Shown one piece after another: positions 7,301 through 12,089 of a stretch of DNA of 64,000 nucleotides. The number at the start of each line of letters is the position of its first letter. Within the stretch, counting starts at the first letter, position 1. The translations under genes and the position numbers were made by a program. Below the pieces are notes generated by a model. The model made no database searches. It was given only the letters and a program-made list of their open reading frames with translations, and was not told the origin of the DNA. Source of the stretch: Melioribacteraceae bacterium (lineage in GTDB: Bacteria; Bacteroidota; Ignavibacteria; Ignavibacteriales; Melioribacteraceae); assembly GCA_016927595.1 (NCBI GenBank), contig JAFGMI010000032.1, forward strand, positions 1 to 64,000, given 5' to 3'.

Positions 7301-8926
7301 TTATGATATTCCTTCATGAAATGATTGATGAACAAACTGGTCGACATAATATTTCGGGTTCAGGTTTTCGCCCGTGGACTTGTAAATTAAATCATTCCAG
7401 GCATAAAGCGCGCCGTAATTAAAGAAGAGATGTTTTAAATAGGCTCCTACTTCCTTAATATCACAGTAAGATGAATCTATATCGCTGTTACCGGCTATAA
7501 CTCTGGTCGTTATATAATTATTGAGCTGCGAGGCAAGCAGCTCACCGAGCATATAATTGTGATAATAAACCGGGTAAAGAGCAATATGTATTTTTGCTGC
7601 CCAGTCCGGTTCATTCCGTCCGTCCGGTTTTTTAATAAATTGATATTTTTCGACCAGCGACCACCATAATGAATTCAAATCCTGATCAGGATTACTGAAT
7701 AATTCTTTTTCAAAACGGTAAATTACCTGAGTCCATCTGCAGAAGACGAGCTGCTCCAGACGGAGCGAATTAAAGATGGATTTTTTTATCTTATCGATTT
7801 CCCCGCTATTGATTCCCAATACAGATTTAATCCAAGCCGGATTTGAAGCCATCCTGCCGAACAACATAGCAATAGCTTCTGTTGTAAGTATGTGTGAATG
7901 TGTCCGAAGCAGCCACGGCAGCTTCCTGTTTATGTACTTATCGTATACAGCATGACCGAATTCATGAAGCATGGTAGCTATCCATTTGTAATTACGCTTC
8001 AGGTTGCAGACCACCCTTATATCACCGGCTCTGTCAATATCCGAACAATATGCATGTTGATATTTGTTCGGTTTTTCGTAAAGATCGCTGTTGTTTATAA
8101 TATCTTCCACGGGCAGATCTATCCCCGCGAAATATTTTGCAGTTATTTCAGCCGGATCGGCTTCCGCAAAAAATTTATCGTAATCTACTGAATAGATCTT
8201 GGGGCCTTGCTGAAAATACTTATCCATGTAATGCCAGGGCATAAGCTCCTCCTGAGTAATTCCATATCTCTCTGAAAGGTAGTTGTCTATTTCAGTTTTT
8301 AAACCCGAAAATTCGTCCCGCGTTAATCTGTCAAGCTCATCGAATATTTCATCAACCTGTTCTGTATTCTGTTCGTTCAGCACCAGGCTCATCTCATGAA
8401 AATTCTTATATCCGTTTTCACGTGCTGCCTCATTACGCAGCTTCACTAATTCGATTACATCTTTTTCAACCTGCTTGCCGACCTGCTTGCTGGCTTCCCA
8501 TGTTTTTTTCAGTACATCTGAATCCAAGGACTCTTCAAGTATTGAATCAATTTGATTGTCCGTTAATTCCTTTCCGTCAACCGAAGCTCTGAACGTGGAA
8601 TAATCAGATTCAATTTTCGTTGAGAGCTTTACAATTCTTTCGTGAAGGTTTTCGTGGTATTGATTAATAGCATAGCTGTTAAACAACAACCCGACCTGTC
8701 TTTTCAGAAATTGATCATTTATGTTTCTTGATTTGAATTCGGATATAAGCTTAAAGTCATCTTTGTCCGAGTATATTTTATTTAGTGCGAGCTGAAGATC
8801 GGCGGCTTCTTTGTAGTCTTCTTCTTTTCCTGAAATTGAAGCATTGAAATAGCTTAAATTTGCTTTTCTGGTTAATTCAGCAACTTTTATCTCGCAGCTA
8901 TTGATAAACAACTGAATGTCTTGCAA
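7301..8926 (-). CDS. M2/M3-type zinc metallopeptidase (peptidyl-dipeptidase-like)
   Basis: A 541-residue, largely helical protein without a signal peptide, so probably cytoplasmic. It has the zincin motif HEFGH at 321-325, and E350 in TTEAIAML, 29 residues after the first His, fits the third zinc ligand of clan MA(E) oligopeptidases (families M2 and M3). Such enzymes release peptides or dipeptides from short peptides. I cannot decide between M2 and M3 by eye; the HSHILTTEAIAMLFGR region looks like the M2 (ACE-like) branch. The start is TTG, with AGGT upstream. It lies 29 bp after the stop of the GroES-like gene, so the two are probably cotranscribed. It is convergent with the DUF5916 gene, with only about 40 bp between them. 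Confidence 0.8.
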   Translation of the reverse strand: MQDIQLFINSCEIKVAELTRKANLSYFNASISGKEEDYKEAADLQLALNKIYSDKDDFKLISEFKSRNINDQFLKRQVGLLFNSYAINQYHENLHERIVKLSTKIESDYSTFRASVDGKELTDNQIDSILEESLDSDVLKKTWEASKQVGKQVEKDVIELVKLRNEAARENGYKNFHEMSLVLNEQNTEQVDEIFDELDRLTRDEFSGLKTEIDNYLSERYGITQEELMPWHYMDKYFQQGPKIYSVDYDKFFAEADPAEITAKYFAGIDLPVEDIINNSDLYEKPNKYQHAYCSDIDRAGDIRVVCNLKRNYKWIATMLHEFGHAVYDKYINRKLPWLLRTHSHILTTEAIAMLFGRMASNPAWIKSVLGINSGEIDKIKKSIFNSLRLEQLVFCRWTQVIYRFEKELFSNPDQDLNSLWWSLVEKYQFIKKPDGRNEPDWAAKIHIALYPVYYHNYMLGELLASQLNNYITTRVIAGNSDIDSSYCDIKEVGAYLKHLFFNYGALYAWNDLIYKSTGENLNPKYYVDQFVHQSFHEGIS

Positions 8927-8955: not shown

Positions 8956-9318
8956 CTATGCGAGCAAATCATCTTCACGAAGGAGCAGAAGAATAGATGC
9001 TTGTGGTACAATTATCAACTTTTCCATTTCCAGTTCGATGTCTATTGCATCTTTTTTAAGAAACAGAGCCAGGTCTCCCACCTTTGCCTGTAGCGGTATA
9101 TATTTTGTGGTTTTATCTTCTTTCCACGGTTCTTCTTCATCTGTAACCGTGGGAAGAGGGTAGCCGGGACCGGTCTTTATAATATAACCGCTTTGTACTT
9201 TTTCCTTTTCAACTACATTCGGAGGCAGATAGAGCCCGCCATGCGACTTATCCGTACTTTTTGTCGGTCGGATTAATACACGGTCGCCAACTATTATTAT
9301 TTTATCTGTATTAACCAG
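8956..9318 (-). CDS. GroES/Cpn10-family protein without a canonical start codon
   Basis: The minus strand encodes about 120 residues of clear GroES fold: KIIIVGDRVLIRP, then GGLYLPPNV, KVQSGYIIKTGPGYPLP and a C-terminal VGDLALFL...KLIIVP. This matches the GroES roof-loop and barrel pattern, with an acidic insertion (TDEEEPWKED) not found in standard GroES. The frame has a TAA at 9322-9324 and no ATG, GTG or TTG before the conserved region. The only start options are CTG (9316-9318), used for these coordinates, or ATT (9319-9321). It could be a rare start, a sequencing error (ATG read as CTG) or decay. No groEL is nearby, so it is probably a GroES-fold paralogue rather than the main co-chaperonin. 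It sits between the asparagine-synthetase-like gene and the zinc peptidase. Confidence 0.8.
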   Translation of the reverse strand: MVNTDKIIIVGDRVLIRPTKSTDKSHGGLYLPPNVVEKEKVQSGYIIKTGPGYPLPTVTDEEEPWKEDKTTKYIPLQAKVGDLALFLKKDAIDIELEMEKLIIVPQASILLLLREDDLLA

Positions 9319-9393
9319 AATTTACCCGCTAAGCAATTATTATACATCGACATTTAAATTTATATGATATCATTCATAATAAAAACACAAAAT

Positions 9394-10653
9394 CTATGTT
9401 TTTTGTTTCTTCTTTTTAGCTGCCGGGAATAAAATATTGTTCAATATTAATCTGTAGCCGGGCGAGTTTTTGAAAAGAGATAAATCTGTTGGGGGATCGC
9501 CCACGGCATGGGTATAATCTTCAGGATCATGACCGCCGTAAAAAGTAAAGGTTCCACGACCAAAATTACCGTGAATATATTTTACCTGGTTTGTGCCGGC
9601 ACGTTCGGCTAAAACATAAACGGATTTTTTCAGCAGCTCTTTTCTGAACATTGTTGTCTGCCCCATAAAACCCCTTATAACATTCACATGGTTTTGTATC
9701 AGCATTGTAGGTACGGGATCATATTTGGCGGAATAATCGAACAATGAAAAATAATCGTTGTTCTGATTTCCAATTTCCTGCGGCTGAATGTCTATATCGC
9801 TGTATTCATAAACCATAGGATTCATTTCCAGCTTAAAATTTTCAAATGCCAGCGTGTTTTCGAAATTCAGCTTTTCCTGAGCATCTGGATCGGGAGGATC
9901 GCCGTCGTACATTCTATCAGCAATATCAACACTTAAAGCGCTCAAAGCGATGTCGTATGAATCTGCTGCCGAACACATTGCAAACAAAAATCCACCCTCG
10001 GCTATGTAATCTCTTATATTTACAACAACCGCTTTCTCCATCTCCGATACTTTTGAAAAGCCGAGTATTTCCGCCTCCCTTTCATATAATAACTGCTGTT
10101 CTACATACCATTGTGCATTTCTGAATGAGGCATAGAACTTACCGTATTGACCTGTAAAATCTTCATGGTGAAGATGAAGCCAGTCGTATTTACTCAGATC
10201 GCCACGCAATATTTCTTTTAACCAGATTTTCGAATAAGGAACTTCCGCATAATCGAGCGCCAACGAAACAGCGTCGTCCCAGGGAAGGTAGCCTTCGGGA
10301 ACGAACACGGCGATTTCCGGCGCCTTTTCCAGCCTTACAACTTCCATGTTCTGATCCTCACTTTGAACGAGGGAATAGATCTCCACTATTTCGCTCCCTT
10401 TTACAATATCGAAAGCTACATCTTTAATTCTGCATGTAAGAGCCAGCTGATCGGTATAATCGAGCATGAAGGCACCGCCCCGGTAATTTAAAAGCCAGTC
10501 GGCAGTATGTCCCTTTTTTAATTCGTTGAACGTTACACCATAAGCTTTAAGATGATCAGTCTGCTTCAGATCCATATATATCAGTACTTTATCCTGAGCC
10601 GGTACAGACTGAAAATACAGCAGCGTTAATATTATCAGAAAACTCTTTTTCAT
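9394..10653 (-). CDS. Secreted protein of the Bacteroidota 'asparagine synthetase B' group
   Basis: A 419-residue exported protein; the signal peptide ends SVPAQ near residue 19. The opening KVLIYMDLKQTDHLKAYG, followed by WLLNYRGGAFML, matches a family often labelled asparagine synthetase B in Bacteroidota, but I see no AsnB synthetase domain and the label is probably misleading. The middle (FVPEGYLPWDDAVSLALDYAEVPY and the IAEGGFLFAMCSAADSYD stretch) looks like a flavodoxin/GATase-like fold of the kind seen in DUF4159-type proteins. The C-terminus is very basic (KKKKQKT). It is the first gene of a probable three-gene minus-strand unit with the GroES-like gene and zinc peptidase. The function is unknown. 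Confidence 0.7.
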   Translation of the reverse strand: MKKSFLIILTLLYFQSVPAQDKVLIYMDLKQTDHLKAYGVTFNELKKGHTADWLLNYRGGAFMLDYTDQLALTCRIKDVAFDIVKGSEIVEIYSLVQSEDQNMEVVRLEKAPEIAVFVPEGYLPWDDAVSLALDYAEVPYSKIWLKEILRGDLSKYDWLHLHHEDFTGQYGKFYASFRNAQWYVEQQLLYEREAEILGFSKVSEMEKAVVVNIRDYIAEGGFLFAMCSAADSYDIALSALSVDIADRMYDGDPPDPDAQEKLNFENTLAFENFKLEMNPMVYEYSDIDIQPQEIGNQNNDYFSLFDYSAKYDPVPTMLIQNHVNVIRGFMGQTTMFRKELLKKSVYVLAERAGTNQVKYIHGNFGRGTFTFYGGHDPEDYTHAVGDPPTDLSLFKNSPGYRLILNNILFPAAKKKKQKT

Positions 10654-10835: not shown

Positions 10836-12089
10836 CTATGCAGATTTACGGTCGGCTTCAATATAAATAGGCTGTGCATTGGTTTCAATAGTATCTTTTG
10901 TAACTAGACATTTATCAATGTTTTCTTTAGCGGGCAAGTCGTACATAACATCGAGTAAAATATTTTCTACTATCGATCTGAGAGCACGCGCACCCGTTTT
11001 TCTTTCCATAGCTTTTTTTACAATGCCGTTTAAAGCCTGATCATCAAATTCTAGTTCGACGCCTTCGAGCATAAACAATTTTTTGAATTGTTTGATAATT
11101 GCATTCTTCGGTTCGGTAAGTATGTTTTTCATCGCTCCCTCATCAAGAGAATGTAAAGGGGCAATCATAGGCATACGACCAACCAGTTCGGGTATGAGTC
11201 CGTACCTGATTAAATCTTCCGGCTGCACCTGTGCAATCAGATCGTCCTTTTCGATATGGTTTTTCTCGTTTATATCTGCATCAAAACCCATTGTACTTTT
11301 ATTTATTCTTGAAGCGATAATGGGGTCGAGACCGTCAAAAGCACCGCCGCATATAAAGAGAATGTTTTTGGTATTTATATTTATAAGGCTCTGTTCAGGA
11401 TGTTTCCTGCCGCCCCTCGGGGGAACTCCTGCAATAGTACCTTCCAGTATTTTAAGTAATGCCTGCTGCACTCCTTCACCGGAGACATCACGTGTAATTG
11501 ATACGCTTTCGCTTTTACGCGCAATTTTATCAATTTCGTCGATGTATATTATTCCCTTTTGAGCTTTCTCCAGATTATAATCTGCAGCCTGGAGTATTCT
11601 TACCAATACGGTTTCAACATCGTCGCCCACATAACCCGCTTCGGTTAAAGTTGTTGCATCTGCAATAGCAAACGGTACATCCAGAATTTTTGCAAGTGTC
11701 TGAGCAATTAATGTTTTACCGACACCGGTTGGACCAACAAGTAATATATTGCTTTTTTCTATTTCAACATCGTCAAGCTCGAAATACGAAGCGTTGGAAT
11801 TAATTCTTTTATAATGATTATAAACGGCAACCGACAATACTTTTTTAGCATAATCCTGACCAATTACATATTCATCAAGACTTTTATGAAGCATCTCGGG
11901 GGTGAGAGAACTTTTAGTGTTTTGTTTCGAACTAAAAGCCGCTATATTATTTTTTAAAATATCTACACTGGTTTTTATGCAAATGTCGCATATATATACA
12001 TCGGGTCCTGCAACCATGCTGGTAACTTCGCTTCCATCTCTGCCGCAGAAGGAACATTTTACCGATTTTTGATCATCTTTAGTGGTCAT
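10836..12089 (-). CDS. clpX: ATP-dependent protease unfoldase subunit ClpX
   Basis: ClpX is the hexameric AAA+ unfoldase that feeds substrates to ClpP. At 417 residues it is of normal length. The N-terminal zinc-binding domain has Cys at 12, 15, 34 and 37. Walker A GPTGVGKT is at 119-126, the GYVG pore loop at 152-155, Walker B IIYIDEID at 180-187, and the RKH loop (GGRKHP) near 226-231. The C-terminal small domain follows ([13 protein letters not shown]). The start ATG overlaps the stop of the upstream TPR gene (ATGA), which suggests translational coupling. No clpP is present in the window. The neighbours differ from the usual tig-clpP-clpX-lon order. Confidence 0.97.

Follow-up and report, generated by a model that had tools for sequence, protein, structure and literature searches.

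Our analysis of the window, by which we mean the whole stretch of 64,000 nucleotides, identifies a gene for a GroES-like protein whose translation most simply begins, as judged by homology, at a CTG codon. In the reading that we favor and consider likely, an intact gene starts at this CTG (positions 9316-9318), which derives from an NTG start codon by one change and is read inefficiently by the initiator tRNA. Mechanistically, a single substitution would have converted the NTG start codon to CTG, the ancestral codon presumably being one that, in this bacterial family, changes frequently between ATG, TTG and GTG. The initiator fMet-tRNA would then read the CTG with a first-position mismatch, and the resulting protein would begin with fMet and be made at a low level. 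The observation itself is sound and its explanation is mostly ordinary, in that the first base of the NTG varies and this genome has the rarest form.

A GroES-like frame without an ordinary start codon

The intact frame at 8956-9321 on the minus strand comprises 121 codons and a stop codon (8956-8958), and is preceded by the TAA at 9322-9324. It opens with ATT (9321-9319) and CTG (9318-9316), followed by GTT AAT ACA GAT AAA, and when the ATT is counted as codon 1 the only in-frame ATG, GTG or TTG codons are codons 81, 99, 102 and 119. A preliminary description of this DNA had reported a GroES-like frame behind an in-frame stop, with no ATG, GTG or TTG start and only CTG or ATT to choose from, and it was correct on each of these points. 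Given that the first ordinary start codon is at position 81 of the frame, a gene caller restricted to ATG, GTG and TTG would either skip the gene or yield a fragment of about 41 residues at best, and the expectation that normal gene callers would overlook it holds for callers of this type. The window contains 13 frames of at least 100 amino acids, measured from stop to stop, that lack ATG, GTG and TTG in their first 40 codons. By coordinates, the 12 others overlap, wholly or mostly, an ORF of at least 150 amino acids, and the GroES-like frame does not. Judged by profile match and conservation, this frame is a genuine coding sequence and not a chance frame, because it scores 46.3 bits with Pfam Cpn10 (PF00166), for which the cut-off is 21.1, over profile positions 1-90 of 93, and because its orthologues in two same-genus genomes are 86% and 83-84% identical over the protein. 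The coordinates of the gene and its surroundings are collected in Table 1.

Table 1. Features of the GroES-like locus in window coordinates
Feature	Position	Strand	Basis or remark
GroES-like (Cpn10 family) coding sequence	8956-9318	-	Inferred CTG start to stop codon, 120 residues
Inferred start codon CTG	9316-9318	-	ATG, TTG or GTG at the same column in family orthologues
ATT codon, sole other near-cognate codon upstream, rejected as start	9319-9321	-	Most orthologues start elsewhere
In-frame TAA stop directly upstream	9322-9324	-	Same-genus G001 also has a stop right before its TTG start
Presumed mobile-loop region, conserved GLYLPP (own classic GroES: GGIILP)	9196-9264	-	Alignment
Acidic insertion TDEEEPWKE, presumed roof-hairpin region	9109-9147	-	Alignment to Cpn10; model confidence low
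Upstream intergenic region	9325-9393	-	Weak SD-like AGCGGG, TATAAT-like stretch
M3/M2 (ACE-like) peptidase gene, TTG start	7301-8926	-	29 nt downstream, probable co-transcribed partner
Upstream gene, no Pfam or NCBIfam match	9394-10653	-	75 nt from the GroES-like gene
clpX	10836-12089	-	Same region

The protein has the same fold as classic GroES/Cpn10 by both profile and model, and has in common with it the VGDRVLI core and a G-L-Y-L-P segment resembling the mobile loop, at the position that this loop has in GroES. The best structural model (pLDDT 77) is a GroES beta-barrel in which the insertion and the loop are poorly modelled, the other four models having a mean pLDDT below 57, and the best Foldseek hit is the Thermus Cpn10 structure 1wnr (E 2.6e-7, target TM 0.81). 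The protein differs from classic GroES in carrying about 13 extra acidic residues at what is presumably the GroES roof, in having no groEL neighbor, and in its NCBIfam scores. Nine NCBIfam GroES models match it, all far below their cut-offs (the best with 41.8 bits against 96), placing it outside classic GroES as these models define it. The extra residues surround an EPWKE motif and are present in all 19 aligned sequences. An acidic insertion absent from classic GroES had been noted before and is real, but it is not peculiar to this gene, a possibility that its family-wide presence rules out.

Profile searches place a GroES-like orthologue in 67 of the 79 genomes examined from the bacterial family and, class-wide, in 184 of 294. 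A search of relatives at an E-value of 0.001 matched 55 of 58 genomes, some of them through no more than a weak hit to classic GroES, and the named records carrying the gene include Cytophagales, Prolixibacteraceae and Kapabacteria among the 80 best-ranked of at least 557 relatives. GroES-like proteins with the acidic insertion are a Bacteroidota-wide family. Among the papers listed from a collection with few subscription journals, we found no title or abstract opening that describes this subfamily.

In the same genome, the classic groES gene lies before groEL on contig C26, the GroES-like gene is not next to groEL, and a single groEL match is present (E 1e-10). By homology, the GroES-like protein is a paralogue of the genome's own groES product, and the likeliest role suggested by its sequence is that of a specialized co-chaperonin lid made at a low level. 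GroES-like subunits are also found in the Chlamydomonas ClpP entry 7ekq, where the Cpn11, Cpn20 and Cpn23 chains match the window protein in sequence and fold. This likeness is one of sequence and fold only, and among the matches listed for ClpP and co-chaperonins no title concerned this entry. A third GroES-type gene in the genome (C28:12575-12838, locus L292) is 49% identical to the classic one and lacks the acidic insertion. It adjoins a frame that we named glutaredoxin-like by eye, though only one groEL was found.

The start column in related genomes

A search of 79 family genomes gave 67 that match, and in each of these we read the start column as the codon ten positions before a conserved Gly-Asp. 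This column holds ATG in 41 genomes, TTG in 19, GTG in five, CTG in the window and ATT in one genome, G019, which has its own ATG one codon upstream. The comparison of start sites with close genomes, which had been proposed as a check, thus fixes the start column at the CTG of the window, 65 of the 67 orthologues having ATG, TTG or GTG there. The preliminary description had left a choice among an unusual start, a wrong base and a lost start. The CTG column favors unusual initiation, but the ATT option within it falls away: an infC-like start at the ATT is ruled out, since the same 65 orthologues start at the next codon.

A start that lay further upstream and was lost or separated by a frameshift is also ruled out, because the orthologues begin at the CTG column and the sister genome G001 has a stop immediately before it. 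The orthologue comparison speaks against a conserved upstream start with a frameshift at this position, and the TTG of G001, placed directly after a stop, indicates that there is no upstream coding sequence in that sister either. More generally, we regard it as extremely improbable that translation starts elsewhere, be it at the ATT one codon up, at ATA at codons 8-10, or in the ATG frame at 9352 with a subsequent frameshift. Both ATT and ATA count as near-cognate start codons, a short ATG frame overlaps the start, and G019 does begin one codon upstream; the ordinary start codons of 65 of 67 family orthologues at the CTG column, together with the position of the stop in G001, argue against all three. 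The short frame in question (window 9296-9352, minus strand) has 18 codons, overlaps the CTG start region and is probably a chance frame.

The CTG as homology-defined start also stands out in a wider comparison. The window orthologue is the only one without ATG, GTG or TTG among 177 distinct orthologues, the other 176 having such a codon in frame at least eight codons before the conserved core. The suggestion that relatives may be under-annotated was not upheld by this count, in which any ATG, GTG or TTG located after the last in-frame stop and no later than codon -8 was scored as a start. The 177 orthologues were obtained with a looser motif from 229 locus hits, none of which was removed for identity. 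They include two frames that run open to the end of the locus (L276 and L285), and a locus cut by its end (L169) is the G017 gene again and was counted once. A narrower count covers 117 distinct loci and leaves out L092, whose motif is GE and not GD; in a further set 38 of 39 loci were read, L275 being left out for its AD motif. Beyond the bacterial family, many lineages start 3-6 codons further upstream.

The same-genus relatives have TTG (G001, directly after a TAA) and GTG at the start column, and G007, G017 and G028 have TTG, so the codon that preceded the change is more likely to have been TTG or GTG than ATG. In a tree of the 67 proteins, the window protein groups with the GTG relative (support 100/59, a branch that is not starred), and the two lie inside a supported same-genus trio (99/84). 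The four start-codon states need at least 14 changes on this tree, which is built from a short protein, leaves 21 of its 63 inner branches open and labels G019 as ATG.

Evidence for and against use of the CTG

Natural non-AUG starts in bacteria include the AUU codons of infC and pcnB. Like these and the rare CUG cases, the GroES-like gene is a conserved gene without AUG, GUG or UUG at its homology-defined start, and the CTG at that position, with no ordinary alternative, is as expected of a natural CUG-initiated gene. It differs from the infC type in that its orthologues vary among ATG, TTG, GTG and CTG and keep no single rare codon, and in that there is no evidence of autoregulation. We infer that the CTG is read correctly in the assembly and serves for initiation. 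PMC11497404 gives CUG as 0.024% of bacterial initiation codons, and protein output relative to AUG as 0.86% for CUG, 29.8% for UUG and 58.4% for GUG. Reconstructed switches to CUG are given as 1 of 2,468 ancestral UUG codons, 1 of 5,080 GUG codons and 2 of 61,358 AUG codons (PMC5622118, which we take to be the work of Belinky et al.). If the CTG is real, the gene should yield far less protein than a TTG start would allow. Among the 67 orthologues, the window start comes 18th in predicted SD pairing (-4.7 kcal/mol) and second in the predicted strength of folding around the start, a structure that should weaken initiation further. A search of the 67 orthologues for a strong compensating signal, in SD pairing or in structure around the start, revealed no clear one. 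Counting against use of the CTG, initiation at CUG is so inefficient that hardly any protein might be made, and switches to this codon are very rare in the literature.

The CTG is one base in one draft assembly, and the C at 9318 might be a sequencing, assembly or minor-strain base in an organism that really has TTG or another NTG. This is consistent with the TTG and GTG of the nearest relatives at the column, with the draft state of the genome (59 contigs), with the published rarity of natural switches to CUG (1 of 2,468 from UUG; PMC5622118), and with the family genome G336, whose in-frame TAA inside the gene indicates that errors or decay occur in such drafts. However, the locus bears no other sign of error, as no stop interrupts the matched length of the GroES-like frame, of clpX or of the peptidase gene. 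By a rough inference that assumes about 3,500 genes and consensus error rates of 1e-5 to 1e-4, about 0.01 to 0.1 hits on the first base of a start codon that give C would be expected per genome. This compares with roughly one CUG start per genome, as derived from the 0.024% figure, the quality of which is uncertain (PMC11497404). On balance, we hold a base error to be unlikely, and in the earlier suggestion of a single wrong base, CTG for ATG, the ATG is less likely to be the original codon than TTG or GTG, given the same-genus relatives.

The possibility of a silent, very young pseudogene, whose start was lost only recently, has to be weighed against the pattern of substitution in the gene. 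Between the window and the two sisters, pN is 0.094 and 0.107, with pS at about 0.8 and saturated, and the non-synonymous differences to the outgroup G007 number 37.5 for the window and 43.7 and 41.7 for the sisters. By these counts, the gene is under purifying selection without acceleration. The lack of accelerated amino acid change, and of any other lesion in the window gene, argues against loss of the start, albeit weakly, since a very recent loss would leave no trace. In its favor are the output of CUG, at less than 1% of that of AUG (PMC11497404), the presence in this genome of the classic groES-groEL pair and the third GroES-type gene, the 12 of 79 family genomes without a GroES-like match, and the broken genes of G336 and G050. 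Taken together, a lost start appears distinctly unlikely. The G336 gene (C382:11060-11416, locus L143) has an ATG start and its TAA lies within the EPWKE insertion, reflecting decay or a base error in a draft genome; it was kept among the 67. G050 has a broken second copy (C17:16412-16761, with one TGA and one TAG) beside an open copy in the same genome.

The GroES-like and peptidase genes

The GroES-like gene is followed by a peptidase gene whose product matches two NCBIfam M3 models, in both cases with a score far short of the cut-off. In all 36 genomes that match both, GroES-like and peptidase genes are immediate neighbors of the same orientation, with 27-145 bases between the ends of their matches, and three further genomes (G005, G006 and G031) match the peptidase but not the GroES-like protein. 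Across Bacteroidota, the peptidase is near 10 of the 80 named GroES-like loci that rank best among at least 557 relatives, and near seven of the 56 among these that are flanked by some 3 kb or more on each side. Nine of the ten peptidase-bearing loci have Ignavibacteria-type titles and one has an unspecific title, and several are genomes already counted. The probable operon of the preliminary description is thus supported on its downstream side, at the spacing given in Table 1. Its upstream side is weakened by the larger gap to the neighboring gene and by a promoter-like element in front of many orthologues. TAnnTTTG is the consensus of a Bacteroidota-type promoter element, and it occurs within 60 bases upstream in 39 of the 67 orthologues, compared with a mean of 4.2 and a maximum of 13 in 500 base shuffles, so the GroES-like-peptidase unit may often have its own promoter. 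Upstream of the window gene itself, a search for the exact element found no exact copy. The gene upstream of the pair probably does not belong to this unit. Its product has 419 residues and, by eye, a signal-like N-terminus; it lies between clpX and the GroES-like gene, and was found in only one of the 80 named GroES-like loci (the best 80 of at least 557).

The GroES-like gene is less than 2 kb from clpX in five family genomes (G000, G001, G002, G007 and G017). In G338 clpX is 5.2 kb away with a different gene order, and the remaining genomes have it at a greater distance or on a separate contig. In G338 (C24:9524-16333) and G337 (C44:3-3567), the GroES-like-peptidase pair is directly beside the gene for an FAD-linked oxidase, which elsewhere precedes clpX, and this is a second, different placing near the oxidase-clpX block.

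Both genes of the pair often lack an ATG start. Non-ATG starts were found in 25 of 67 GroES-like genes, with G019 counted as ATG, and in 10 of 30 peptidase genes (TTG in nine and GTG in one, with ATG in 19 and one unresolved). Among control genes of this bacterial family, a start other than ATG occurs in none of 30 clpX loci, none of 30 classic groES loci and one of 30 loci for the FAD-linked oxidase, or 1 of 90 in total. The Fisher p value for GroES-like genes versus controls (4e-10) is descriptive, as the orthologues are related and there are only three control genes. The controls are the 30 best-scoring loci per gene, drawn from 75 clpX, 66 GroES-match and 62 oxidase genomes; the function of the oxidase was assigned by eye, and most classic groES loci among them carry a GGAG-type SD. 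The GroES-like orthologues tolerate weak starts, which speaks for the CTG reading, and the frequent non-ATG starts in both genes hint at weak initiation by design. It could be envisaged that in Melioribacteraceae the GroES-like and peptidase genes form a two-gene unit held low by weak NTG starts, of which the CTG is the extreme, that the ring serves the peptidase or another protease (perhaps ClpXP) and not GroEL, and that synthesis is sensitive to the levels of initiation factors or initiator tRNA. We consider this proposal as a whole very unlikely, and a role with the adjacent peptidase or ClpXP is speculative.

CTG starts are already known, but they are rare. If the base is right, a conserved gene would here show a natural and evolutionarily placed change of its start from another NTG to CTG. 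As callers restricted to ATG, GTG and TTG would overlook it, tallies of CTG starts based on such calls may be too low. The analysis also brings out a subfamily of GroES-like proteins with an acidic insertion that, in this bacterial family, is linked to an ACE-like peptidase and is prone to weak starts.
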